From assembly GCA_944472155.2 (NCBI GenBank), contig OX235272.1, forward strand, positions 79,986,020 through 80,050,019: 64,000 nt of DNA, given 5' to 3'. Source of the stretch: Trichobilharzia szidati. Taxonomy: Eukaryota; Platyhelminthes; Trematoda; Strigeidida; Schistosomatidae. The stretch's first letter is position 1, and the number at the start of each line of letters is the position of its first letter. Of the stretch, positions 2,961-34,640 are shown one piece after another. Below the pieces are notes generated by a model. It was given only the letters and a program-made list of their open reading frames with translations. It was not told where the DNA came from and did no database searches. The translations under genes were made by a program, and so were the position numbers.

Positions 2961-3484
2961 TGTCCTTGGATCTCTATTATGTATCGTGTCTTCCAATCAG
3001 ACTTAAATATCTTGTAGTCTGTCTAATGTTGTTGTTAGGACATCTTCTTCGGACAAGCTGGCATACCCTTATGGTTTAGGGTGAAATTTTTTAATTCGTT
3101 GGCGTAAAGGTGACAGTGCATAGACTGAATAATTCATTCAAACAAACTGTTAAGTTAAGCTGAAACTATTCATTATCTATACAGACAAATCACTATTGCA
3201 CTGCTTTGCTAAAGTAGACTAAAAGGATGAAAAGGAAATCGATAGAAGTTAAGGTGGGAGATAAGTTGATAGCATGAATTTTAAAAAATGCCCTTTCTGA
3301 TACTAATGAAGGTATGATAAGTATGTATTCTTTGAAAAAGTGACTATACAACCAGTTTTAAAAAAATTAAACTGAATACTGTAAGAAAAAACCTGAGAGC
3401 GAAATCCTACAAAATAAAATTGATAGGCTTTCAATAAATCTAAAAGTGACTGGTTCTAAAGATTTTATATTTGTTAGTTTAGGT
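2961..3484. other. Gene-free stretch
   Basis: No gene or repeat recognised. Confidence 0.4.
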
Positions 3485-4516
<1,032 letters not shown>

Positions 4517-9840: not shown

Positions 9841-10974
9841 CATAGACTGATGTGAGGTTTTGATTTGACCATCCGTAACTCCTTTCCAACTTAATTCTGT
9901 GTTGGTTAGTGTTGCTCGGTGAGGAAGGCAATAGCTTGTTATTCTAAAATATGTCCTAGCCGTTTCATCATTTAGCTCAGCTTCATAACCTCATCGATTG
10001 ATTTGCCCTCATTATCTAAGAATCCACGTCTAATCTCATTAATACTGATCACATCTTGCCACTTAACAAACACCTATGGTCGGAGATGGTCGATCTCTTC
10101 ATATATTCCGCTTTCAAAGATCATGTCACATAGTATTAAAAAAGACTAGGGCAAACTTCTGCTCAGTACATATGTCCTGTGGTTGACAGCCAGTTATATG
10201 TCATATCGTAACTCATCAAAACTGTCACTTCACACCATGAAGTGTCCATTGACAGTCATATCCTAATTATATTTATGACCGACAACAATATAAATCACAG
10301 CCAAGCTGCCCTACGACTAGGTGGAACTTGGAAGACGTTGGCTATTGCATTCCCTAATGGTAATCTAGTGACAGTGTGCTGCTAGTAAAATGACTGTCCC
10401 GGGTATCATTTCAGCGCTTCTAGATAGTTCCAGACTGGGTCAAGGTGTCATCCCAGTCCTTTCTGGATTCCGAAGTACACTTGAATTACTTATGAAAGTA
10501 CTTCAAAGACCACTGTCCCTTCATGGTGTTATTTATGCTGAACCTGTGTGCCTGTGTGTGTGCAATACTGTCAGGTTAGCTAAACGGAATTATAGTTAGG
10601 TGTTTCAAATCATTTATGGTGAACAATCATGCTGAAACATGTTCCACACTATGAGAATAAAGTATAGTCAAATTTATATGAGATTTAAGCAGAATAAAAT
10701 TGAAAACTCTAATCTAGTCAAAGTTTATATGAAGTGAAATATTTGTGGTGAAAAATTTGCCACTTTATTCGTTGAAGGGTAGTGAAAATGAAAACAGAAT
10801 TGTTTATGTGTTTTTCTTAAGTGTCTATAACATACCTTATGCGTTCAAAGGACATTAAAACTGTTATTGAATGTGTAAAGAACTTTATTATCTGCATGCC
10901 AAAATAGGCTCAACTATGATATGTTTTTATTACCATTATTATTATTCCCTTGAATTCCATATGCAATTTAGTTT
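9841..10974. other. Gene-free stretch
   Basis: No supported gene. A 69-codon open frame at 10390-10599 has no recognisable features. Confidence 0.4.
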
Positions 10975-11283
10975 GTGGGTGGTGACTAGCAGTGGAATTC
11001 AGGATGTGGATTTCGTCCCATTTGGGACTCGTCATCTGGATGTACCTGCATTTCCCAGTGAGTGATGATGTTCCCACCGAGGCTCGAACCCAGTGCCCTT
11101 GGTTTCAAATGCCAAAGCGTCATCCACTAGACCACTCGGGCCACGAGAGCCACCTCTTGTGCAACGGGTCATATTAATTTAATTGAATTTGAGATTTTCC
11201 CGTCGATTGATCGAACCGAAGGGCTCGGTCTCAAGTTGACATATCGGCTTCTTGTGCAGATGCTTCGAAGGGAAAATCTCAAA
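10975..11283 (-). mobile_element. Sm-alpha-type retroposon, minus strand
   Basis: Minus strand order: 5' block (gacgggaaaatctcaaattc), tRNA-like part with box A (gtggtctagtgg) and box B (ggctcgaac region), hammerhead at 10997-11041, then ccactgctagtcacc. This order and hammerhead sequence style are those of the schistosome Sm-alpha family. It forms an inverted pair with the next unit. Confidence 0.85.
10997..11041 (-). ncRNA. Sm-alpha hammerhead, mutated core
   Basis: AUCCAG opposite CUGAAU (one mismatch in stem I), core AUGACGA (C3 to A), stem II GUCC/GGAC, GAAA, AUC before the predicted cut. The C3 change should weaken or abolish cleavage. Confidence 0.75.
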
Positions 11284-11500
11284 TTCAATTAAATTAACAT
11301 GACCCGTTGCACAAGAGGTGGCTCTCGTGGCCCGAGTGGTCTAGTGGATGACGCTTTGGCATTTGAAACTAACGGCACTCGGTTCGAGCCTCGGTGGGAA
11401 CATCATCACTCACTGAGAAATGCAGGTATATCCAGATGACGAGTCCCAAATAGGCCGAAATGCGCATCCTGGATTCCACTGCTAGTCACCATTCATAAAT
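11277..11500 (+). mobile_element. Sm-alpha-type retroposon, plus strand
   Basis: Inverted counterpart of 10975-11283, with box A gtggtctagtgg, box B ggttcgagcct, and a hammerhead at 11430-11474. Starts inside the 5' block (gggaaaatctcaaattc). Confidence 0.85.
11430..11474 (+). ncRNA. Sm-alpha hammerhead, mutated core
   Basis: Stem I AUCCAG/CUGGAU perfect; core AUGACGA (C3 to A); stem II GUCC/GGCC with one mismatch; GAAA; stem III AUGCGCAU, self-complementary; cut predicted after C11468. Confidence 0.78.
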
Positions 11501-11524
11501 TAAATTCTAATTAAATGCCCAGAC

Positions 11525-14047: not shown

Positions 14048-15202
14048 TACAATCGTATATATATGGTTTTTAAGAAGATATATCCGGTGAGGGAATTAAA
14101 TCATAGGTGTGAATGCATAAAATAATAATAATAATAATATGAAATACAATTAAAACTAAAATGTTTGTGATTATAATCGTAGTCATATATAGAATAATTC
14201 ATAGGATGGAGAGAACTTGAAAAAGGGTGTGCAATTATAAGATTAGTAGACAAATCGAATGAAATAAAACGTTACGTAATATTGTGTGAAATTTAATAGC
14301 ATAGAATTTAATGTTGTAAAAAGGAATTGATTTAGAATGACAAGTGGAACAAGTGAAATAATACCGGGGGACAGTTAAAAGTGAGAGTAATAATGATAAC
14401 AGTTGACGTAATAAGGAAGAGTATACAAATTGCAAAGACAAAAATGAAAAATTGGTAGAGTCAAAATATGACTGGGGATTACCATACTTTAGCATAGAGG
14501 GATTAAGACCATGAGAGTTGAAGGGGTTGAACGAACTTTTTCTGTACACAGAGATCTGGCTTTTCTGTTTCGATAGCCAAAGCTTCAGCAATACAGATGA
14601 GTCAAGTACGTAGGGATTTGGGTAAATTACTCTTTGCCTTGTAGATGACTTTAAAGGCGGAGGCTATAGAGATAGGGTGATCATTATCAACCAGATGTTC
14701 AATGATCGCCCTTCTTATTGCTCCACTTCCACCTCTTCATAACCATGCAGGATAGTGTTCTTGTATCCTCTTGGACAAAACTCGAGTCGAACGACCGATA
14801 TACCTAGCTCCACACGAGTAGGTGAATTGATAAACACACATAGAGTTGGTCAACAGCGGGATCTTGTCCTTCAGGTTATTGAAAAATAATGGTCGACTAG
14901 AAAAGGCTATTCTCAGGGATGCAGGAGGGAATGTTCTTTTCAGGGACTGTGATATCCTCCGTTTCATGATATCGGAAGCTAAGTCCCCTTTGAATTCCAA
15001 GCTCATGTATCTTCTTGGGTACGGTCGATAACTCACGTTTTTTAGGATTTGAATGTATATTCTTATATATAAAACGTGGTGGAAATCCATTTTCTATGAG
15101 GATTTTCCTCAAGATGTATAACTCATCTTCCACAGTATCAGGGCTACATATGCGCCGAATACGAGTGGCAAGCGACCGGATCAGGTTTCGTTTTCGACCA
15201 AT

Positions 15203-15214
15203 GGGTACCCAGCT
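15203..15214. repeat. TSD, left side, of the lineage A pair
   Basis: gggtacccagct, exactly repeated at 20966-20977. On the minus strand it codes for the SWVP segment of PLE D. Confidence 0.92.
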
Positions 15215-15268
15215 CCATATTAGTTTGTTTATTAGGTATATCACACAGTGAAACAGTATTATTTACTG

Positions 15269-15308
15269 GATGACGTTTCGAACAAAATTTATTGTTCATA
15301 ATCATATC
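15269..15308 (-). ncRNA. Hammerhead-like fold, PLE A terminus
   Basis: Stem I GAU/AUC, core AUGAUUA (C3 and G8 changed), extra U, stem II GAACAA/UUGUUC, then GAAACGUC. The same sequence occurs at 17955-17994 (minus), 18161-18200 and 20847-20886 (plus). Confidence 0.5.
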
Positions 15309-18006
15309 AATTGTGATCACACGACTTTGACACTTGAGTTTTATAGCTTTCTTTGTTTTCTCCTATTTGTCGTAGGGGGAGTAGAATTTTCCAGATATCG
15401 GGGACAGGTGATGAATCATTCCTATTACATGTATTTGCAGTTGATTCGATAAACAAAGCTTCTGTTATCAATCTCTCCCTATACCCTGTGACATTAGATT
15501 TTAAAACTGTCATCCTATCCCATCCTATTGTATGGTTGTGTGTGACTGCATGTAGTGCTATAGCTGAACTATTCTCTAGATTACTTATTTTATTCGGGTC
15601 AACCAATCTAGATTTTGCTAAGTTTTTATGTTCAGCTAGTCTGACTGCCCCTGTTCTACTAGTTTGACCTATGTATTTGACCTGACAATCATTGCAGGGT
15701 ATTAGATAAATTAAATTGCTTTGTTTTAAAGGCTCTACAGGATCCTTTAGCCGACAAAGCTTGTTTCTAATTGAGTTTGTGGGTTTGAATGCCGTTTTTA
15801 TTCCTGCCTTGTTTAGAATTCTGCGTAAGGCTTCCGAGGTTCCTTCTTTGTATGGAATTACTACTGATGATTTAGACTCTTTATTGTTGGTGTCGTTATC
15901 AATATTATTATTATTGTCACTATTATCATTATCATTATTATTGTTATTATCACTATCGCTATTACCATTATTTATTTTATTTTTACATTTCCTTACATAT
16001 TTCCTGACTAATTTATCCGGGTAATTATTAAGTTTCAAGGCTTCTTTTATATGTATCAGTTCTTGGTTTAGATTTTCTTTGGTACTACTTAATTTTTGTG
16101 CTCTGTTATTTAAACATTTCACCAATCCTACTTTTACTGACATAGGATGGGATGATTGGAAGTCCAAATATCTGTTTGAGTGTGTGGGTTTCCTGTAAAC
16201 ACTAGTGTTTAACTTCCCATCTTCTTTCCTCTTTACGTTGCAATCTAACATTGGGAGTTCCCCTTCCTGATTTTCCAATTCATAAGTGAATTGAATTGCC
16301 TCAACCTTCGAGTTTATGTGTTCGAAAAACCTATCTATATCTTGTGTTCTAAGTACAGTGAATGTGTCATCTACGTACCTCCACCATACTTTTGGGGTGG
16401 GGGTGAACGTTTCAATCGCTATGCTTTCCCACTTATTCATGAATATATCTGCTACCACTGGGGATATTGGTGATCCCATGGCAACTCCCTCAGTTTGTTT
16501 GTATATTTTCCCTTGGAATTTAAATACTGTGGAAGTCAGGCATAGTTGTACTCCCAGCATTATGTCCTCAAGTGGCACTTTTGTCCTAAGTTCGAGGTCT
16601 TGGTCAGAAATGAGTTCGTTTCTGACTGCCTCTATAGCCATATTTATTGGTATACGTGTGTATAAACTGACAATATCAAAACTAACCATTTTTTCTTCAT
16701 TATCTAATTTTAAATTATCTAATCTATGTTTTAGTTCATAAGAATTAGTTAGTCTAGATTTCGAGTGGATTTTTAAGGGATTTAATACCATGGCTAAATA
16801 TTTAGATAATTCATAAGTAGGTGAATTTCTAAAATCAACTATAGGCCTAATAGGGTATCCTGACTTATGAACTTTAACAACACCATACATCCTACTGGGA
16901 TTATTAGTTTTGGGCATTAAATTAAACCACTTAGACTCACCTAGAAACGGCTTCATTCGGCGTATAAGATCCGCTGTGGATTTCTTAACTTTATTCATAA
17001 CTGTATCTATTGGTTTATTAATTTCCTCATATGGTCCTGTTTGTATGTGAGTATTTACCTTGTCCAAATAGTCTGATTTGTCTAATACCACTGTTGCATT
17101 TCCTTTGTCTGACTTTGTGATAACTATATCCTTGTTATTCTTAAGGTGTTTCAAGGCTTCTATCTCTTGTTTTGTCAGGTTAGGCTTTCCACATTTTTGT
17201 CGTTTTAATGTTAGTGCACATTGTGCCCGTACTTCATCAGCCGTAGTTTTGTCTATCCCACTTAGTGCTATTTCTATTTTAGGGATGACATCCTCAGGTT
17301 TCAGCTTGTCTAGAGATACATTGAAATTTAGTCCCTTTTCTAATACACTTATTTCCGTAGGACTTAATGTATGTGTTGAGAGATTGATAACCCACTTTGA
17401 TTTATCGATCGCCGTTGACTTTTTGTTGTTGACTTCATCATTCTGAGATGTAGATTTCTCTTCTAATAATTTGTTGAACTTTTTGATTTGACTATTTTTT
17501 GACTTTTTGAAAGTTGCTGATTTGGCACTGCTAGAGGACTGCGTTATAAGATCATAATCTGTACTGGTAACTATTCCTTTTATCTTTTGTTTTAATTGCT
17601 CAATTTCAGATCTGATATGTTGCAACTTTTTTACGATTCTGTGGATTTCTTCTTTCAGGCATAATTTTTGTAGGCCTTCTATTCTGCTTCTAACTCTGTC
17701 CGTTGGAACTGGAGCTCGTAGACGTAGATATTTAGGAATGATTTCATTTTTTTGGCATCGAATGTTGAAAATACGGTGATTTTCATATCTTGCTTCAGTT
17801 TGTGAAAGTCGAGTGAGTTTATTGATAAGTCTTCGTACAGGAAGACCATAAGTCATATTAATATATGTGTAAAACTTGGGCACTGTGGTAGTAAGTAATT
17901 CCATATTAGTTTGTTTATTAGGTATATCACACAGTGAAACAGTATTATTTACTGGATGACGTTTCGAACAAAATTTATTGTTCATAATCATATCAATTGT
18001 GATCAC
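15307..18006 (-). CDS. PLE lineage A protein, RT plus GIY-YIG endonuclease, copy 1
   Basis: Open frame of 899 codons; the frame opens on GTG, and the first ATG is codon 6, so the protein is probably 894 aa (or 892 from codon 8). It should copy the element RNA and nick the target. Visible parts: basic N-terminal region; KSDKGNATVV (298-307); RT motif A with D444 in SFD; motif B GVAMGSPISP (507-516); motif C YVDD (544-547); a low-complexity Asn/Asp stretch (679-708); a CNDC pair (771-774) just before the GIY-YIG core YIGQTSR (778-784). No breaks. It differs from copy 2 at two residues only (Pro275 here, Thr there; Thr856 here, Ile there). All catalytic boxes look intact, so activity is possible. 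No introns needed. Confidence 0.93.
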   Translation of the reverse strand: MITIDMIMNNKFCSKRHPVNNTVSLCDIPNKQTNMELLTTTVPKFYTYINMTYGLPVRRLINKLTRLSQTEARYENHRIFNIRCQKNEIIPKYLRLRAPVPTDRVRSRIEGLQKLCLKEEIHRIVKKLQHIRSEIEQLKQKIKGIVTSTDYDLITQSSSSAKSATFKKSKNSQIKKFNKLLEEKSTSQNDEVNNKKSTAIDKSKWVINLSTHTLSPTEISVLEKGLNFNVSLDKLKPEDVIPKIEIALSGIDKTTADEVRAQCALTLKRQKCGKPNLTKQEIEALKHLKNNKDIVITKSDKGNATVVLDKSDYLDKVNTHIQTGPYEEINKPIDTVMNKVKKSTADLIRRMKPFLGESKWFNLMPKTNNPSRMYGVVKVHKSGYPIRPIVDFRNSPTYELSKYLAMVLNPLKIHSKSRLTNSYELKHRLDNLKLDNEEKMVSFDIVSLYTRIPINMAIEAVRNELISDQDLELRTKVPLEDIMLGVQLCLTSTVFKFQGKIYKQTEGVAMGSPISPVVADIFMNKWESIAIETFTPTPKVWWRYVDDTFTVLRTQDIDRFFEHINSKVEAIQFTYELENQEGELPMLDCNVKRKEDGKLNTSVYRKPTHSNRYLDFQSSHPMSVKVGLVKCLNNRAQKLSSTKENLNQELIHIKEALKLNNYPDKLVRKYVRKCKNKINNGNSDSDNNNNNDNDNSDNNNNIDNDTNNKESKSSVVIPYKEGTSEALRRILNKAGIKTAFKPTNSIRNKLCRLKDPVEPLKQSNLIYLIPCNDCQVKYIGQTSRTGAVRLAEHKNLAKSRLVDPNKISNLENSSAIALHAVTHNHTIGWDRMTVLKSNVTGYRERLITEALFIESTANTCNRNDSSPVPDIWKILLPLRQIGENKESYKTQVSKSCDHN
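17955..17994 (-). ncRNA. Hammerhead-like fold at 5' end of PLE A copy 1
   Basis: Same fold as 15269-15308. It overlaps the first codons of the open frame, because the end of one unit is the start of the next. Confidence 0.5.
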
Positions 18007-18015
18007 ACGACTTTG

Positions 18016-18148
18016 TTTATCGAATCAACTGCAAATACATGTAATAGGAATGATTCATCACCTGTCCCCGATATCTGGAAAATTCTACTCCCCCTACGAC
18101 AAATAGGAGAAAACAAAGAAAGCTATAAAACGCAAGTGTCAAAGTCGT
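18016..18148 (+). repeat. 133-bp PLE A 3'-end fragment (pseudo-LTR piece)
   Basis: Copy of the last codons of the element (FIESTANTCNRNDSSPVPD region) placed head-to-tail in front of copy 2. It has its own silent change (acgcaag where both full copies have actcaag) and shares Thr856 with copy 1, not copy 2. It separates the two arms of the palindrome. Confidence 0.9.
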
Positions 18149-20848
18149 GTGATCACAATTGATATGATTATGAACAATAAATTTTGTTCGAAACGTCATC
18201 CAGTAAATAATACTGTTTCACTGTGTGATATACCTAATAAACAAACTAATATGGAATTACTTACTACCACAGTGCCCAAGTTTTACACATATATTAATAT
18301 GACTTATGGTCTTCCTGTACGAAGACTTATCAATAAACTCACTCGACTTTCACAAACTGAAGCAAGATATGAAAATCACCGTATTTTCAACATTCGATGC
18401 CAAAAAAATGAAATCATTCCTAAATATCTACGTCTACGAGCTCCAGTTCCAACGGACAGAGTTAGAAGCAGAATAGAAGGCCTACAAAAATTATGCCTGA
18501 AAGAAGAAATCCACAGAATCGTTAAAAAGTTGCAACATATCAGATCTGAAATTGAGCAATTAAAACAAAAGATAAAAGGAATAGTTACCAGTACAGATTA
18601 TGATCTTATAACGCAGTCCTCTAGCAGTGCCAAATCAGCAACTTTCAAAAAGTCAAAAAATAGTCAAATCAAAAAGTTCAACAAATTATTAGAAGAGAAA
18701 TCTACATCTCAGAATGATGAAGTCAACAACAAAAAGTCAACGGCGATCGATAAATCAAAGTGGGTTATCAATCTCTCAACACATACATTAAGTCCTACGG
18801 AAATAAGTGTATTAGAAAAGGGACTAAATTTCAATGTATCTCTAGACAAGCTGAAACCTGAGGATGTCATCCCTAAAATAGAAATAGCACTAAGTGGGAT
18901 AGACAAAACTACGGCTGATGAAGTACGGGCACAATGTGCACTAACATTAAAACGACAAAAATGTGGAAAGACTAACCTGACAAAACAAGAGATAGAAGCC
19001 TTGAAACACCTTAAGAATAACAAGGATATAGTTATCACAAAGTCAGACAAAGGAAATGCAACAGTGGTATTAGACAAATCAGACTATTTGGACAAGGTAA
19101 ATACTCACATACAAACAGGACCATATGAGGAAATTAATAAACCAATAGATACAGTTATGAATAAAGTTAAGAAATCCACAGCGGATCTTATACGCCGAAT
19201 GAAGCCGTTTCTAGGTGAGTCTAAGTGGTTTAATTTAATGCCCAAAACTAATAATCCCAGTAGGATGTATGGTGTTGTTAAAGTTCATAAGTCAGGATAC
19301 CCTATTAGGCCTATAGTTGATTTTAGAAATTCACCTACTTATGAATTATCTAAATATTTAGCCATGGTATTAAATCCCTTAAAAATCCACTCGAAATCTA
19401 GACTAACTAATTCTTATGAACTAAAACATAGATTAGATAATTTAAAATTAGATAATGAAGAAAAAATGGTTAGTTTTGATATTGTCAGTTTATACACACG
19501 TATACCAATAAATATGGCTATAGAGGCAGTCAGAAACGAACTCATTTCTGACCAAGACCTCGAACTTAGGACAAAAGTGCCACTTGAGGACATAATGCTG
19601 GGAGTACAACTATGCCTGACTTCCACAGTATTTAAATTCCAAGGGAAAATATACAAACAAACTGAGGGAGTTGCCATGGGATCACCAATATCCCCAGTGG
19701 TAGCAGATATATTCATGAATAAGTGGGAAAGCATAGCGATTGAAACGTTCACCCCCACCCCAAAAGTATGGTGGAGGTACGTAGATGACACATTCACTGT
19801 ACTTAGAACACAAGATATAGATAGGTTTTTCGAACACATAAACTCGAAGGTTGAGGCAATTCAATTCACTTATGAATTGGAAAATCAGGAAGGGGAACTC
19901 CCAATGTTAGATTGCAACGTAAAGAGGAAAGAAGATGGGAAGTTAAACACTAGTGTTTACAGGAAACCCACACACTCAAACAGATATTTGGACTTCCAAT
20001 CATCCCATCCTATGTCAGTAAAAGTAGGATTGGTGAAATGTTTAAATAACAGAGCACAAAAATTAAGTAGTACCAAAGAAAATCTAAACCAAGAACTGAT
20101 ACATATAAAAGAAGCCTTGAAACTTAATAATTACCCGGATAAATTAGTCAGGAAATATGTAAGGAAATGTAAAAATAAAATAAATAATGGTAATAGCGAT
20201 AGTGATAATAACAATAATAATGATAATGATAATAGTGACAATAATAATAATATTGATAACGACACCAACAATAAAGAGTCTAAATCATCAGTAGTAATTC
20301 CATACAAAGAAGGAACCTCGGAAGCCTTACGCAGAATTCTAAACAAGGCAGGAATAAAAACGGCATTCAAACCCACAAACTCAATTAGAAACAAGCTTTG
20401 TCGGCTAAAGGATCCTGTAGAGCCTTTAAAACAAAGCAATTTAATTTATCTAATACCCTGCAATGATTGTCAGGTCAAATACATAGGTCAAACTAGTAGA
20501 ACAGGGGCAGTCAGACTAGCTGAACATAAAAACTTAGCAAAATCTAGATTGGTTGACCCGAATAAAATAAGTAATCTAGAGAATAGTTCAGCTATAGCAC
20601 TACATGCAGTCACACACAACCATACAATAGGATGGGATAGGATGACAGTTTTAAAATCTAATGTCACAGGGTATAGGGAGAGATTGATAACAGAAGCTTT
20701 GTTTATCGAATCAATTGCAAATACATGTAATAGGAATGATTCATCACCTGTCCCCGATATCTGGAAAATTCTACTCCCCCTACGACAAATAGGAGAAAAC
20801 AAAGAAAGCTATAAAACTCAAGTGTCAAAGTCGTGTGATCACAATTGA
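18149..20848 (+). CDS. PLE lineage A protein, RT plus GIY-YIG endonuclease, copy 2
   Basis: Open frame of 899 codons starting at GTG 18149. The likely start is ATG 18164 (codon 6) or ATG 18170, giving 894 or 892 aa. Domains and motifs are as in copy 1: D444 in motif A, GVAMGSPISP, YVDD at 544-547, YIGQTSR at 778-784. It carries Thr275 and Ile856. No stop or frameshift. The frame runs straight out of the preceding 3'-end fragment, and the stop (tga at 20846-20848) lies inside the repeated hammerhead segment. Transcription start is not visible; in PLEs the pseudo-LTR region normally supplies it. Confidence 0.93.
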   Translation: MITIDMIMNNKFCSKRHPVNNTVSLCDIPNKQTNMELLTTTVPKFYTYINMTYGLPVRRLINKLTRLSQTEARYENHRIFNIRCQKNEIIPKYLRLRAPVPTDRVRSRIEGLQKLCLKEEIHRIVKKLQHIRSEIEQLKQKIKGIVTSTDYDLITQSSSSAKSATFKKSKNSQIKKFNKLLEEKSTSQNDEVNNKKSTAIDKSKWVINLSTHTLSPTEISVLEKGLNFNVSLDKLKPEDVIPKIEIALSGIDKTTADEVRAQCALTLKRQKCGKTNLTKQEIEALKHLKNNKDIVITKSDKGNATVVLDKSDYLDKVNTHIQTGPYEEINKPIDTVMNKVKKSTADLIRRMKPFLGESKWFNLMPKTNNPSRMYGVVKVHKSGYPIRPIVDFRNSPTYELSKYLAMVLNPLKIHSKSRLTNSYELKHRLDNLKLDNEEKMVSFDIVSLYTRIPINMAIEAVRNELISDQDLELRTKVPLEDIMLGVQLCLTSTVFKFQGKIYKQTEGVAMGSPISPVVADIFMNKWESIAIETFTPTPKVWWRYVDDTFTVLRTQDIDRFFEHINSKVEAIQFTYELENQEGELPMLDCNVKRKEDGKLNTSVYRKPTHSNRYLDFQSSHPMSVKVGLVKCLNNRAQKLSSTKENLNQELIHIKEALKLNNYPDKLVRKYVRKCKNKINNGNSDSDNNNNNDNDNSDNNNNIDNDTNNKESKSSVVIPYKEGTSEALRRILNKAGIKTAFKPTNSIRNKLCRLKDPVEPLKQSNLIYLIPCNDCQVKYIGQTSRTGAVRLAEHKNLAKSRLVDPNKISNLENSSAIALHAVTHNHTIGWDRMTVLKSNVTGYRERLITEALFIESIANTCNRNDSSPVPDIWKILLPLRQIGENKESYKTQVSKSCDHN
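18161..18200 (+). ncRNA. Hammerhead-like fold at 5' end of PLE A copy 2
   Basis: GAU stem, AUGAUUA-U, GAACAA loop UAAAUU UUGUUC, GAAACGUC, AUC. Stem II is perfect; core positions 3 and 8 are not canonical. Confidence 0.5.
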
Positions 20849-20886
20849 TATGATTATGAACAATAAATTTTGTTCGAAACGTCATC
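20847..20886 (+). ncRNA. Hammerhead-like fold at 3' end of PLE A copy 2
   Basis: Identical to 18161-18200. Confidence 0.5.
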
Positions 20887-20965
20887 CAGTAAATAATACT
20901 GTTTCACTGTGTGATATACCTAATAAACAAACTAATATGGAATTACTTACTGCCACAGTGCCCAA

Positions 20966-21125
20966 GGGTACCCAGCTGTAGAAATTTGTCAAATGACCAT
21001 TCCATGACAGCTTACGATAAATCGATCTCTTCAAAATTCCATCGGTCCTCCTTGATAATTTCACATCGAGGAAATGAACACTAGACTCGTTCTCCATGAG
21101 AACAGTTAAGGAAATAAACAACTTT
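20966..21125 (-). mobile_element. PLE lineage D, RT segment upstream of the nested insertion
   Basis: Minus strand reads SSVHFLDVKLSRRTDG, then RSIYRKLSWNGHLTNFYSW, the part of the RT just after the catalytic box. It runs into the TSD (20966-20977) and continues at 15214. The copy is 5'-truncated at about 21125, so the YxDD box is missing. Confidence 0.85.
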
Positions 21126-22277: not shown

Positions 22278-22292
22278 ATCTTCATACTTGAT
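22278..22292. repeat. TSD, left side, of PLE B
   Basis: atcttcatacttgat, exactly repeated at 25353-25367. Confidence 0.9.
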
Positions 22293-22347
22293 CATAATAA
22301 AGGTTTTTGTATTTCCCAATGAATGAAAAACAAAACGATATTGTTTT

Positions 22348-22393
22348 TACTGACGTTTCGCTATTTAATGCTGCTAATAGCTTTATCAAAGTA
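22348..22393 (-). ncRNA. Hammerhead-like fold, PLE B 3' terminus
   Basis: Stem I UACU/AGUA, core UUGAUAA plus extra A, stem II GCUAUU/AAUAGC (6 bp, perfect), GAA, two-pair stem III AC/GU, H17 is C. Confidence 0.6.
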
Positions 22394-22789
22394 TTATTAA
22401 ACCGGAATTTACAAAATCCACTCAGCTTATATATATAACAAAGAGTTAAGAGGTGAAAAAATAGACAAGTTAGGTCAAGTTAAAAGGACATATTGAAAGT
22501 CAAAATAACAATGAAGATCACTAAACCAAATAACAAGGGTAATAGTACATCTGTTATAGCATCAAAACAAAGTTTACTAACTTGATCATCGTTCGTCAGT
22601 CTGGGGTCATTTTTCGTTGTCAAGTTGGTCAATTGGTAAAGATAACAAAACCAAGTGTAGATTGTTGGATTTGATCGGTGTGTAAAATTATAAAAGCAGT
22701 ATGTGCTTACATAGTGAACTTGCTTATCACATTCGTGTTGATTTTGTCACTTCATGGGGGAGGGAGGTGTTGTAACCATGTTAAATTCT

Positions 22790-25190
22790 GTTTTAGTCCA
22801 TCATTCCTATTCAGACAATTTGGATTCCACTTGATATGAAGTGCTTCTGATGATATTAGACGTTCTTTATGATTTCTGAAGTTTTTCTGGATTATTTCAA
22901 TATTGTCAAAATCAATTTTGTGGCCTGATTCTATAGCGTGTAGACCACCTATGGCTGATGATTTTTCAAGCTTTTCTAGTTCACTAATTGGATTTCTCGG
23001 TGGTCGAACAGATGCTCTACGGTGTTCATTTCTTCTGATTTTGATTTCTCTCCGGCGATGTTTGTCCGATGTATATCGCATCACATTCCAAGCATTTTAT
23101 TTTATAGACACAATTAGATAGAGAATCTTTAGGGATTCGGTCTTTTATATGGACAAGGTTGTTTCGTAGTGTGTCTGATATTTTGAAGAAAACTCTAATG
23201 TCGAGCTGATTGAGTACTCTTCTGATATCGTCTGACGTCTCTGCTCTATATGGAATGACGACTGTTGAGGTCCATGTTTTCGGAATGCGTTTTCGACCAT
23301 ACTTAATGTTTGTGTTGATTTTGTTGATGAAGTTCCTTGGGTAGTTGTTTTGCTTGAGAGTTTCAGTAATGTTTGATATTTCTTTTTCTTTCTCATCCGT
23401 TATCAGAGAGTGTGATCGTCTAAGAAGACTTGAAACAACTGAAATCTTTGCGCTGATGGGGTGTGATGATCTGAAGTCTAAATATTTATTGGAGTGGGTT
23501 TTCTTCCTGAATATGGATATACTAAGATGTCGGTTTTCCCTCCTCTTAACTAGGCAATCTAGAAATGGTAGTTCACCGACGTCTGATTCTGCTTCCGAAG
23601 TAAACTGGATTCTGGGAGATACACACTTTATTTTCTCCAGGGATGAACTGTGTAGATCTCGCTTTAGCGCTACAAAAGTATCATCTACATATCTTAACCA
23701 TATTTTAGGAGTGAGTATGCTTGAAAAGATGTTATTTTCGAATCTATTCATGAAAAGGTCAGCGACTATTGGGGAGACTGGTGAACCCATAGCAACACCA
23801 TTTGTCTGTCTATATAAACTCCCTTTAAATGTAAAATAATTACTTTCTAGATAGAATTTCAAGCTCTTAATTATTTCACTGGTGTCCAGTGGACATCTTT
23901 GTGATAGCATTGTATCTGATTCTAGTAGACTGGAAATGATATCAAGACTTTCGGTAATAGGGATACTAGTATATAATGAGTTAATATCATAGCTTACCAT
24001 AATGTCTTCTTTATCAATTTCTCGGTGTTCTATTTGGGATTTGAAATCATATGAATTTCTCACAATATTTTGAGTGTCCTTTTGTAGTGGTTGTAGTATC
24101 GAGAGTAAGTATTTAGAGAGGTTGTATGTTGGTGAGTTGGTGAAATCTATTACTGGTCTTAATGGAACTGTGGGTTTATGTATCTTTGGTTGACCGTAGA
24201 ATCTTGAAGGTACATAAGATTTTGGATTTAGTTTAAACCAGAGAGAATTTCCAATTTTGGGTTTCGTTTCTTGAAGGAGTCTGTTTGTATTTAGTTTCAT
24301 TTTGTTGAATTCGGCGGATTTCTTCTTCTCTTCAGTGAGTAAGTATGGTCCTTCAGATAGGTGTTCAGTCGCCTTCTTTTCATAATCCGTTCTGTTCATT
24401 ATCACAGTGACATTTCCCTTGTCGGCTTTCGTTATAACGATGCTTTTGTCTTTCTTCAAATTTCTTAAGGCTTCATATTCTTGTTTGGTGAGATTAGATG
24501 GCATGTTTCGTTGTGTCATTAATATGTGTGATATCTTTTGACGAACAGATTGTGATTCTTCATTGGTGAATTGTTGTAGAGCAGGTTCGATCATAGGTGC
24601 TATTTCCTGGACCGATAATGGCTTTCTAGTGATACTGAAATTCAAACCTTTCTGTAGTAATGAGATTTCATTTTCGGTTAGTATCTTGTCTGACATGTTA
24701 TGTATGGCTCTAATATTCTTCATATCATTTGCTGAGGTTTTCTTTGGTTGTTTCTTTTCTTCGAGTTTCAAGAATTTTTGTATTTGTCTTCTTTTAGTGA
24801 CATTATGAAAATGAGATTCTCGTTCATTAAACAATTTTTGGAAGGATTCATAGATATGGCTTGTAACAAATAATGTTAAACAGTTGTCTATATTTTTGAT
24901 TCTCGTTCGATAAGATTCAAGTCTGATGTTGCAGTTATGTATTCTTTCTCGTAAAAATGCTTTGGAGGTATGATTTGCGGCAAGTATGGATTTATGCGAA
25001 TACTCAAGAGGTTTAACTCGTAGTGACTTTGGAATAATTCCACTTTGTAGACAGCGTACGTGAATACATGATTATAGAAGTTACATTTATGCCTTGATAG
25101 AGTAATCCGGCTTTTAATTAAGTTATATATGTCCAAACCAAGTTCACTTTTAACAGTTTGAAAAAATTTGGGCATTGGGTATATGATATT
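22790..25190 (-). pseudogene. PLE lineage B protein, RT plus GIY-YIG, two frameshifts
   Basis: Equivalent of the lineage A protein, about 800 codons. It opens with MNIIYPMPKFFQTVKSELGL. A frameshift near 25043 leads into GIIPKSLRVKPLEYSHKS. An open stretch of about 600 codons (to 23026) then holds KADKGNVTVI, motif A SYDINSLYTSIPI, motif B GVAMGSPVSP, motif C YVDD and the start of the GIY-YIG domain (CDAIYIGQTS). A second frameshift near 23055 separates this from RREIKIRRNEHRRASVRPPR and the C-terminal end (NCLNRNDG). RT catalytic residues are intact but the two shifts make it a pseudogene. The two breaks are single-base-type changes, so the copy is not very old. Confidence 0.9.
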
Positions 25191-25250
25191 CATTATAATA
25201 AAGGTTTTTTTTGATTTCCCAGTGAATGAAAAACAAAACGATATTGGTTT

Positions 25251-25293
25251 TACTGACGTTTCGCTATTTAATGCGAATAGCTTTATCAGAGTA
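25251..25293 (-). ncRNA. Hammerhead-like fold, PLE B upstream fragment
   Basis: Same fold as 22348-22393 but the core reads CUGAUAA, keeping C3. Taken with the 5579-5624 copy, which keeps G8, the family ancestor probably had CUGAUGA. Confidence 0.62.
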
Positions 25294-25367
25294 TTATTTT
25301 TTATTATTAATGTTTTCAAACTTTTAAAAGTGAACTTGGTGTGGACATATATATCTTCATACTTGAT

Positions 25368-31090: not shown

Positions 31091-33104
31091 CAATTCGCGA
31101 TTTATAGAGCAACCGTAAGCAACTGTCCTCTTACAGGACTTGGTGAACTTACCTAGTCACTACTTCTCAGTAAAATTCCAGGTAAATTCCTGTATAGAGC
31201 CAGTTGCTAGTGAGCATCAGATTAATTTTTAATTGTTGGTTTGATTTGATTGGTATATTCAGCTTCTGCTCAGGAATATTAATGATATATCTCACTTTTC
31301 TAAAAGTATTTTTTCCTCATGAATAAATTCTTTCCTCTTTATTTTGACAGTGGTTAATTTTAGAACTAGACGTGAATGCCTTAATTTTAGAAAATCACAA
31401 AAAGACTCACATAACAAAACCACACATAAATAGATACTAGAAATGTCCTTCACCTTACAGTAATACAATAACTTTGCATATTTTAATGTACAAATTCGTG
31501 GACTATGTTTAATGCCTCTGGACTAAATCACCATTGAAATTCTAGTGAAGTTAATCGACAGTTAAACTGGACATCTTTTATTAAATCCATATCCAACATC
31601 CAGTTATATAATCAGATTGAACAACGCATATGGTACTATTTTTATCACTACTGTTATTATTGTTATTAAGCACTTGTCAAAATATAAATTAGAAATTAGC
31701 TAAATTAGTTATATCTGCTTCTGATGGTTTGATTATCTAATTGCAGGTTGACATTTGAGATTTCCTGTCGCCACAATGTATTCCACTGTAATGTAAGCAG
31801 TGTACGCTAGAATTCTATATACTGTCAAGTGTAAAAGCAGTTGGCCTTAAGAGGAATATAATCGTATACATTACACAGTAGGCTTTGGTTTGATTTCTAC
31901 TGTGGCTGTTGGGGATTGCATGAAAATGAATCGTAATGCCTAATGACGATATCATGATAACAGACTGAAAAAGGTTATGTGTTAGGACACTAGGTGGGAG
32001 AGATAATTAGCCCTAGGAAACACAAATATTAAGGTATCCCTAAACCGAATAAGTGACTTCTTCTGTTTATTCGTGTACAGTTGCACCGCTAATTTTTAGA
32101 CGCTGCCTTGTACAGAACGATTCTCTCAACTAAATGCTTAGACTCTTAACTCTTATATAAATGTTTTAACGAATGACGGTGAATTTGTGGATCAAATAAT
32201 ACCAATAACGATTTTAATAATACGGTGTTCCAAATGGGTTATCCTAGTAGATTTCTGAGGAGAAACTGGCAACAGTTAAAGAGAAACAACTGTTCCTAAA
32301 ATTGCAATTTAATGGGGAAGTGGCTAGTGAAGTTCTACATCTAAGATTATCAAGAACAGTAAAATGGACTTATATTGCCGTTATCCTGTATTTGTGATTT
32401 TCCAGCCAACCACCAATCATGATTGTTTAAGTGAAATTCAAGCCGCCGAGCTGTGCCACTTATATGTATATATACAAAATTTAATTGATTCTATGGAGAA
32501 AGCTACGCAGGGCGAACAACCCGACAGCTCAAACAATGTATTATTGAGCATCTTCCTTCATATTTCGGAAAAGGCCGAATAATAAAAGGAGTTCCATCCT
32601 GACTCATTTGACTGATGGCGGTCACCAAGCCGACAGAAGAAGTGCCTTCAAAGTTATCTATCGTATTCCATCGAGCCTTTCGAACGGAATTCGAACCCAC
32701 CTTTTACACATAACCGAAGCTATGGGAATTAATTCGAGGGAACAATCCTAGTATTTGCATACAAAAGAAATTTGTTCTACCTTTGTCTCTCCCTTGATTG
32801 CTTAGGTAAAGTCTCTAATTTTCCATTTCCTTCGTGTTTTAATGATATTTATTTAAACTCTGATTATCTGTCCACTTCACCTTTAGTATCACTTAACTTT
32901 GAAGATTTGACCTAATTTATTTATTCATTGAATTGTCTACATACACACATATTACTACCTTCGTTATTCTTATCACCACGTGCATAAACCTTATTATCAT
33001 TATTTTGTTATCATTATAATAATCGTTACTACTGACGTTCAAAATATTTACCACATTATTATTATTATTATTATCATTATTAACTCTTATGACTAGTGAA
33101 AGAG
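31091..33104. other. Gene-free stretch
   Basis: About 2 kb without a supported gene. An open frame at 32364-32582 (72 codons) is not recognised. A box B-like gttcgaattcc lies on the minus strand near 32690, but no repeat unit could be delimited. Confidence 0.4.
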
Positions 33105-33285
33105 CAGAACTTAGGCACCGTGGCAGAATATAATTCCATATTTGATAAGATTTTTCTTTGAAATAACATAACATCTATATGATATGACTATGGACAATGA
33201 ATTGTACTCGAAATGTCATCCACTTGTCAATACTCGATCACTCAATGTGTTATATCAAATAAAATCATCTAATAATGAGGTACTC
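33105..33285 (+). mobile_element. PLE A-like inverted junction
   Basis: Left piece (33105-33145) is the start of the lineage A-like coding region on the minus strand (gaacttaggcaccgtgg). The right piece (33178-33285) is the terminus/leader on the plus strand (gaattgtactcgaaatgtc). The geometry repeats the head-to-head arrangement at 18015 in a more diverged relative. Confidence 0.65.
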
Positions 33286-33308
33286 TTATAACTAAGTTAA
33301 TTCACTAT

Positions 33309-33597
33309 TTTTGATTGGACACTAGTCAGTAAGTAGTGTAATGTGTCTAGTCCTATCTTCGGTGCAGACTGAATTCTATCAGTCAAGCTTGCAATGTGGC
33401 CACCATGTTAAGTGGCTCGCCATTATGGTGCACTGTGAATTACCTCCAGCCGTCTAATACCAACAGTTCACAGTGCACTGTAATGGTGAGCCACTTAACA
33501 TGGTGGCCACATTGCAAGCTTGACTGATAGAATTCAGTCGGCATCGAAGATAGGATTAGACACATTACACTGGTTGCTGACTCGTGTCCAGTCAAAA
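33309..33597. repeat. Long inverted repeat, arms about 130 bp
   Basis: 33309-33439 pairs with 33465-33597 with few mismatches around a spacer of about 25 bp. The central 70 bp (actgaattctatcagtcaag and following) is almost perfect. The spacer resembles the tail of SINE3 just downstream. A diverged version occurs at 51785-51905, and one arm is seen in 39725-39800. Confidence 0.88.
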
Positions 33598-33624
33598 ACA
33601 ACCAATACAGTCCTACAGGAGGTC

Positions 33625-34499: not shown

Positions 34500-34640
34500 T
34501 TGCATGAAGGATTTCATCATGAGCTGACATCAGTTAGAGAACCATTGGAAAACCTGGGAGTACTGGGCAGCTGTTTCGTCCTAGTTTGGGACTCTTCATC
34601 TGTACGCACCCACCGGGATTTGAACCCAATAATCTACACT
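34500..34640 (-). mobile_element. SINE1 copy, minus strand
   Basis: Clear SINE1: box B ggttcaaatcccgg and hammerhead GUACAG, core AUGAAGA, GUCC CAAACUA GGAC, GAAA. C3 and U16.1 (GCC for GUC) are changed. Confidence 0.8.

Follow-up and report, generated by a model that had tools for sequence, protein, structure and literature searches.

Head-to-head dimers of a Penelope-like element in Trichobilharzia szidati suggest copying from both strands of the target

A palindrome of two copies of a Penelope-like element (PLE) lies at positions 15203–20977 of a 64,000-nucleotide (nt) stretch of the Trichobilharzia szidati genome (GenBank assembly GCA_944472155.2, contig OX235272.1, positions 79,986,020–80,050,019), referred to here as the window. 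In the literature PLEs are treated as a third class of retroelements in eukaryotes. An earlier note, made from the sequence of the window, had described the two copies as lying head to head, and their pairing confirms that the palindrome is real: the inverted arms 15214–18015 and 18140–20941 pair across 2802 nt with three mismatches (99.9% identity). The features of the insertion and its borders are listed below (TSD, target-site duplication; pLTR, pseudo-long terminal repeat; RT, reverse transcriptase).

14533–15214, minus strand: left flank, the C-terminal part of an interrupted older PLE (PLE D), by homology
15203–15214: left TSD, GGGTACCCAGCT, an identical 12-mer at both borders, maximal length 12
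15215–18015, minus strand: left arm, one full unit plus ca. 116 nt of upstream pLTR; 3' end outward at 15215, at the tailless putative start site
15307–17991, minus strand: left-arm frame, intact, 894 amino acids, stop included
17900–18015, minus strand: left-arm upstream pLTR piece, recurring at 15214–15329
18011–18015: inner 5'-to-5' junction, 5-nt microhomology CTTTG
18011–20966, plus strand: right arm, 270 nt of pLTR followed by one full unit; tailed 3' end facing outward
18011–18280, plus strand: right-arm upstream pLTR and tail equivalent, recurring at 20697–20966 (98.9%)
18164–20848, plus strand: right-arm frame, intact, 894 amino acids, stop included; RT and GIY-YIG-like
20942–20966, plus strand: tail, 24–25 nt beyond the tailless putative start site, at the right outer end only
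20966–20977: right TSD, GGGTACCCAGCT, its first G being also the last base that matches the element
20978–21115, minus strand: right flank, the upstream part of the same interrupted PLE, by homology

The left arm is 2801 nt long and the right arm 2956 nt. Since the unit is 2686 nt, each arm is one complete unit and part of a second, the pLTR layout of PLEs, in which pLTRs come from partial tandem copies. The outer ends are not equivalent, with a tail of 24–25 nt on the right and none on the left. A separate 133-bp fragment of the 3' end, which the earlier note had placed between the arms, does not exist – the unpaired ca. 125 nt there are the start of the right arm's own upstream pLTR.

Both arms have intact frames, as had been noted, but counted from the first ATG these encode 894 amino acids rather than 899 codons. 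The two proteins differ at two residues, also as noted: two of the three mismatches between the arms are coding changes, at residue 270 (P/T) and residue 851 (T/I), and the left arm matches a T. szidati relative (P0001) at both. Like other PLEs, the element has a single open reading frame with a telomerase-like RT (RVT_1, E 7e-7). The RT residues D295, K296, Y539, D541 and D542 are invariant in an alignment of 11 sequences and intact in both arms. The Pfam match to GIY-YIG (E 0.009, 16.7 bits) is under the cut-off of 22.6, while the invariance of Y762, Y773, G775, R784 and E787 in the same alignment favors a GIY-YIG domain, and these motif residues are intact in both arms. An AlphaFold2 model of the arm protein, built with 11 sequences, has a mean pLDDT (predicted local distance difference test) of 82.6, and its best matches in the PDB by Foldseek are telomerase RTs (TERTs). 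A sequence search of the PDB with the arm protein gave no match better than E 0.28. Between the RT and endonuclease parts is a repeat stretch rich in Asn and Asp (20174–20275 and its mirror in the left arm, residues ca. 671–704) with low pLDDT; it recalls the N-rich inserts described for rotifer Penelopes. A hammerhead ribozyme in the pLTR is common in PLEs, though not required. Rfam found no hammerhead in the window element (15150–21020) at E up to 5.

The palindrome interrupts another PLE. When the insert is removed and one TSD kept, the flanks give one continuous PLE frame (NFYSWVPIGRKR), so the restored reading of PLE D described in the earlier note holds. Six PLE proteins span the rejoined flanks at E 1e-7 or better among the 132 proteins compared (12 from a PLE search and 120 from an RTE-like search, in which T. 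szidati hits reached only 67–81%); P0008, P0009 and P0010 cross the join ungapped, and P0004, P0005 and P0007 with gaps. With the unedited window, the matches of P0007–P0010 to the right flank stop at the insert. Because six PLE relatives align across the rejoined flanks, one insert interrupted one element. The 12-bp TSD is at the outer borders only, as had been described, and nothing flanks the inner join of the window dimer, where there is no TSD. The inner junction does have the 5 bp of microhomology first reported (at least five shared bases are expected at a random join with P about 0.007).

The genome was surveyed for relatives of this dimer with a single query, the inner junction (17900–18100), against the 1.11-Gb assembly, with 40 of 742 candidates scored. 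The 47 matches fell in 34 places including the window, mostly on one contig (C1), and all 33 others were retrieved. The entries L001–L008 duplicate the window or loci with later numbers and did not enter the counts a second time. Arm and border coordinates were taken by hand from BLAST tables, and the ends of older dimers are approximate. Among the 47 matches listed, the head-to-head junction that the earlier note proposed to look for elsewhere had a full-length match only at the window. The places were classified as follows.

TSD-bounded head-to-head dimers (19 places): window, L011, L012, L016, L017, L019, L020, L022–L025, L027–L031, L033, L034, L041
Head-to-head, without a TSD or without both 3' ends (five places): L010, L013, L018, L037, L038
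One-armed with a TSD of 9–15 bp (four loci, three insertions): L014, L036, L039 = L040
One-armed as far as retrieved, no TSD above 6 bp (six places): L009, L015, L021, L026, L032 (cut by the start of the retrieved stretch), L035

More than half of the places (19 of 34) are thus head-to-head dimers inside TSDs of 10–17 bp (median 13), with 19 different TSD sequences. Variable TSD length is a PLE trait, and the 12 bp of the window lie within the 10–17 bp of the 18 other dimers. For 13 of the 19 dimers, the right border was placed at random 40 times per dimer; the shared sequences were 6–8 bp at the 95th percentile and at most 7–11 bp, except for 25 bp at L012 and the window. Arm lengths range from ca. 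40 nt to 2956 nt, those of the window dimer being the longest. This family is by no means poor in inverted dimers, and the window copy is its full-length extreme; of the TSD-bounded inverted dimer of two coding-competent copies that had been called notable, the inverted dimer as such is frequent here, and the unusual part is that both arms are full length and coding. The single outer TSD, the continuity of the rejoined flanks, the lack of an inner TSD and the 18 further TSD-bounded dimers together support the view that the window palindrome is one integrated product and not two insertions, as had been proposed from the window.

L039 and L040 (C1, at about 16.00 and 15.54 Mb) are the same one-armed insertion with the same TSD, at mirrored loci ca. 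0.46 Mb apart. This is either an inverted segmental duplication or a misassembly.

The outer ends of the dimers are element 3' ends that fall at two fixed sites, given here in right-arm coordinates of the window.

18251–18261, plus strand: putative RT start site 1, tailless ends of all 19 dimers, median 18255
18279–18299, plus strand: putative RT start site 2, tailed ends of all 19 dimers, 18 of them at 18290–18299, median 18296

A 3' tail of 30–40 nt, optional in PLEs, is thus found in this family too: the sites are ca. 41 nt apart, and the tail in the window is the 24–25 nt given above. Every one of the 19 TSD-bounded dimers has exactly one tailed and one tailless outer end, both within one TSD. 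The chance of all pairs being unlike is 2e-6 (0.5^19) if the ends are independent, and 1.5e-5 under random re-pairing of the same 38 ends. Two like-ended pairs were found, L010 (both ends tailed) and L037 (both tailless), and neither has a TSD above the null. The ends of the dimers suggest copying from both strands of the target DNA, each starting at a different site on the RNA.

Of the 19 inner joins, thirteen have 0–20 nt of microhomology (the BLAST overlap, an upper bound), and the other six have 1–16 nt of filler; the filler in L027, ACAGTTATG, duplicates a 9-mer a few bases away. The 5' ends of the two arms are within 30 nt of each other in seven dimers (permutation expectation 1.1, P 5e-6); a limit of 130 nt takes in nine (P 0.0015). 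Where both arms are at least 250 nt long, the 5' ends coincide in six of 12 dimers (P 1e-4). In some dimers, then, the two complementary DNAs (cDNAs) have a common stopping point, which the end of a shared RNA or a local fold-back would produce; in others they do not. The tail is on the shorter arm in eight of the 19, with arms that differ by 524–926 nt in L016, L020, L028 and L033 and by 5–28 nt in L011, L017, L022 and L027.

Whether the two arms were copied from one RNA or two was approached through arm-to-arm distances in 11 of the 19 dimers, the overlaps in the other eight being too short. Relative to the reference arm, the two arms of L025, L022 and L012 have 10, 10 and 4 differences in common, as expected of a single source. 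In young dimers these distances are uninformative on the question.

The interpretation we favor, with a probability of about 0.85, is that each dimer arose in one insertion event of a probable GIY-YIG-type PLE, through two-sided target-primed reverse transcription and joining of the resulting cDNA ends. The enzyme of the element, which probably acts as a dimer, would cut the two target strands ca. 13 bp apart, and each target 3' end would prime an antisense cDNA on element RNA. One cDNA would begin at site 1 and be tailless, and the other at site 2, ca. 41 nt further 3', and carry the tail. Both would proceed toward the 5' end of the element, and their 3' ends would be joined through microhomology or a short filler, so that each could therefore prime the complement of the other. 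The product would be a head-to-head dimer bounded by a TSD, with arms 5'-truncated independently or jointly; in the window both cDNAs would have exceeded one full unit, leaving two coding copies. Two independent starts on the RNA, one per target strand, would explain both the tail on the shorter arm and the rule of one end of each kind. The anatomy, the single TSD, the empty site, the unlike ends of all 19 dimers, the excess of coinciding 5' ends and the joins can be read directly in the sequences, whereas the starts of reverse transcription, the dimeric enzyme, the simultaneity of the two reactions, the joining of ends and the use of one RNA or two are what we infer.

A bolder form of this proposal we regard as tentative, at somewhat less than even odds. 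PLE integration would be a concerted two-strand reaction, in which a dimeric ribonucleoprotein engages element RNA (probably one molecule) at two start sites with a spacing of 41 nt. Each subunit would use one of these sites and prime from the opposite target strand, so that every complete event has exactly one tail. The annealed 3' ends of the cDNAs would prime each other, replacing a separate priming of the second strand, which might explain the inverted pLTRs of PLEs generally. The near coincidence of the arm ends in seven of the 19 dimers would follow from a shared 5' end of the RNA.

Several observations weigh against two-sided copying or limit it. L018 is unlike-ended but nested and without a TSD. 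The tail in the window ends at 18279, ca. 17 nt short of the usual site 2, and the window TSD lacks the AT-richness reported as the target preference. In 15 of the 19 dimers the tailed arm lies to the right in assembly orientation, which the proposal does not account for. The distance limits for the 5' ends were chosen post hoc, and over all 19 dimers the arm ends correlate weakly (Spearman 0.41, P 0.08). The arms of L016 and L017 differ by 7–8%, more than they differ from their nearest other copies, which does not suit one source. One-armed insertions with TSDs exist (the three listed above), and two-sided copying is therefore not obligatory. The share of dimers among the 34 places may also be inflated, because the one query is itself a dimer junction, 40 of 742 candidates were scored and most matches are on one contig; the pairing of tails should not be, as the query holds no tail.

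The main rival to two-sided copying, though we consider it unlikely, is self-priming (snap-back), in which a first strand started at the target folds back and is recopied to the target as the second arm. A version of this with an antisense template has been proposed for rotifer Penelopes (PMC3846280). A short fold-back predicts arms that end close together, as they do within 30 nt in seven dimers, and L030 is joined where there is a local inverted repeat (CCACC/GGTGG). Considered by itself, the window dimer is also compatible with self-priming, the tailless arm being the shorter. A copied arm cannot outreach its template, however, and the shorter arm has the tail in eight of the 19 dimers. L016, L020, L028 and L033, with their large arm differences, contradict self-priming as the sole mechanism, although L016, L028 and L033 are old copies, ca. 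87–92% identical to the reference; L011, L017, L022 and L027 are less sure, because their arms differ so little. Self-priming also does not account for the presence of both end sites in every pair, nor for the joining of the copy to the far side of the TSD.

The other explanations have lower probability than self-priming. It is very improbable that the arms inserted separately, the later one at the end of the earlier: nesting of PLEs does occur, and the window insert itself sits in another PLE, but the TSD is on the outer borders only, the 5 nt of microhomology at the inner join are not accompanied by a duplication, and the same layout with one outer TSD is found at 18 other loci. About equally improbable is an assembly artefact, in which one copy was mirrored through a missed adapter or a mis-joined haplotype. 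The 99.9% identity of the arms in the assembly would fit this, yet the axis of symmetry falls within the element, while the mirrored arm stops precisely at the tailless site, next to a TSD. Three positions and the tails also distinguish the arms, and the 18 other dimers have different arm lengths and in some cases diverged arms. It is hard to see how an artefact could recreate an end site proper to the element together with a TSD and an empty site. Least probable of all is that the palindrome itself is mobile, with read-through RNA of a pre-existing inverted dimer copied whole; the inner junction has its only full-length match at the window among the 47 matches (40 of 742 candidates scored), and the junctions of the remaining dimers differ from it.

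The T. szidati dimers resemble the Penelopes of the rotifer Adineta vaga, as described in the available part of PMC3846280. These have a pLTR-ORF-pLTR structure (ORF, open reading frame) with an adjacent inverted pLTR and an outer TSD of 8–10 bp, a 31-bp tail at one inverted pLTR that is described as optional, and an overlap at the inner junction, with head-to-head as the commonest inverted arrangement. The inverted pLTR layout, the outer TSD, the tail at one end, the head-to-head orientation and the junction overlap are all shared with T. szidati. The inverted partner in A. vaga is described as a piece the size of a pLTR, whereas in T. szidati it ranges from ca. 40 nt to a complete coding copy; the tail is described as optional in A. 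vaga, whereas exactly one is present in each of the 19 TSD-bounded dimers here; and antisense self-priming is proposed for A. vaga, whereas eight of these 19 do not fit simple self-priming.

The enzyme of Poseidon from Anolis carolinensis (PAc) cuts and extends both target strands in vitro, and its reverse transcription starts at two adjacent internal sites on the RNA that correspond to the tail (PMC11167929). The two strands did not appear to differ in their start sites, and the second strand and later steps were left open (PMC11167929). PAc and the T. szidati element have in common an RT protein with a GIY-YIG domain, GIY-YIG-like in T. szidati, two adjacent start sites matching a tail, the latter by our reading of the dimer ends, and, under the proposed mechanism, cleavage and extension of both target strands; unlike the case of the T. 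szidati dimers, no pairing of the two sites within an insertion is described in the main text on PAc (PMC11167929). By our own reading, a CGAAACGTC stretch in the window element is near the place described for the PAc cut site; the window element, set against PAc, has no hammerhead match in Rfam at the E value given above.

Twin priming of L1 is another comparison. A second primer anneals internally on the L1 RNA and gives a 5' inversion with one 3' end. Both target strands prime in one event, as proposed for the dimers, and the product, like theirs, is inverted with a TSD, but the L1 product has one 3' end, whereas both outer ends of the T. szidati dimers are element 3' ends.

Inverted pLTRs, a tail at one end and head-to-head orientation have already been published (PMC3846280 and PMC8969392, in their available parts). 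No pair of coding PLE copies joined as a dimer inside one TSD, and no strict pairing of start sites within one insertion, was found in the available portions of the open-licence literature, a scope outside which the older Drosophila work falls. An inverted or head-to-head arrangement is not mentioned in PMC2718515, and the available passages of a paper on D. virilis transposable elements do not mention a head-to-head one. What the T. szidati case adds is the pairing of two start sites within single events. Inverted and tandem layouts of PLEs have been known without a settled mechanism, and the 19 dimers with one end at each site give a rule that can be tested, in which a single event involves two strands and two start sites. 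In the full-length palindrome the second arm is itself a complete coding copy, so that one event can deposit two coding copies at a site.

Two other elements in the window bear on the one-tail plan.

22293–25352, minus strand: PLE E, full-length arm with a tailless 3' end, 39% amino acid identity, ca. 44-nt inverted arm of tail sequence
22278–22292 and 25353–25367: TSD of PLE E, 15 bp
33091–33281: decayed head-to-head pair with two short arms, from an A-like PLE, tailed only at the left end, with a TSD-like ACTCTTAT

PLE E shares the dimer plan of the window family, with one tailed end, one tailless end and one TSD. A second tail piece of the E family, in L012, ends within two bases of the tail site of E; the family has few ends among the retrieved loci. 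The decayed pair near 33.1–33.3 kb probably follows the same one-tail plan, although support for the pair is weak, with a left-arm score of 55 where 500 shuffles reached at most 47.

The pLTRs of PLE E at 22388 and 25288 (minus strand) have a hammerhead-like motif (TGATAA, a hairpin and GCGAAACGTC), which an Rfam scan at the gathering threshold did not report. One E copy has TTGATAA, which would be a paired C3U/G8A change of the hammerhead core. The decayed pair is adjoined on its right by a palindrome at 33308–33598 with 132-nt arms (92%) and a 27-nt spacer.

A further inverted head-to-head repeat pair, at 10965–11506, is tRNA-like or SINE-like (SINE, short interspersed element) by our own reading. 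Its borders share no flank of at least 7 bp. Each arm has a type I hammerhead (10997–11041, minus strand; 11430–11474, plus strand), and the window has further hammerheads at 2416–2461 and 34560–34605. An array resembling a minisatellite, with a period of 8 bp, is located at ca. 3454–4000.

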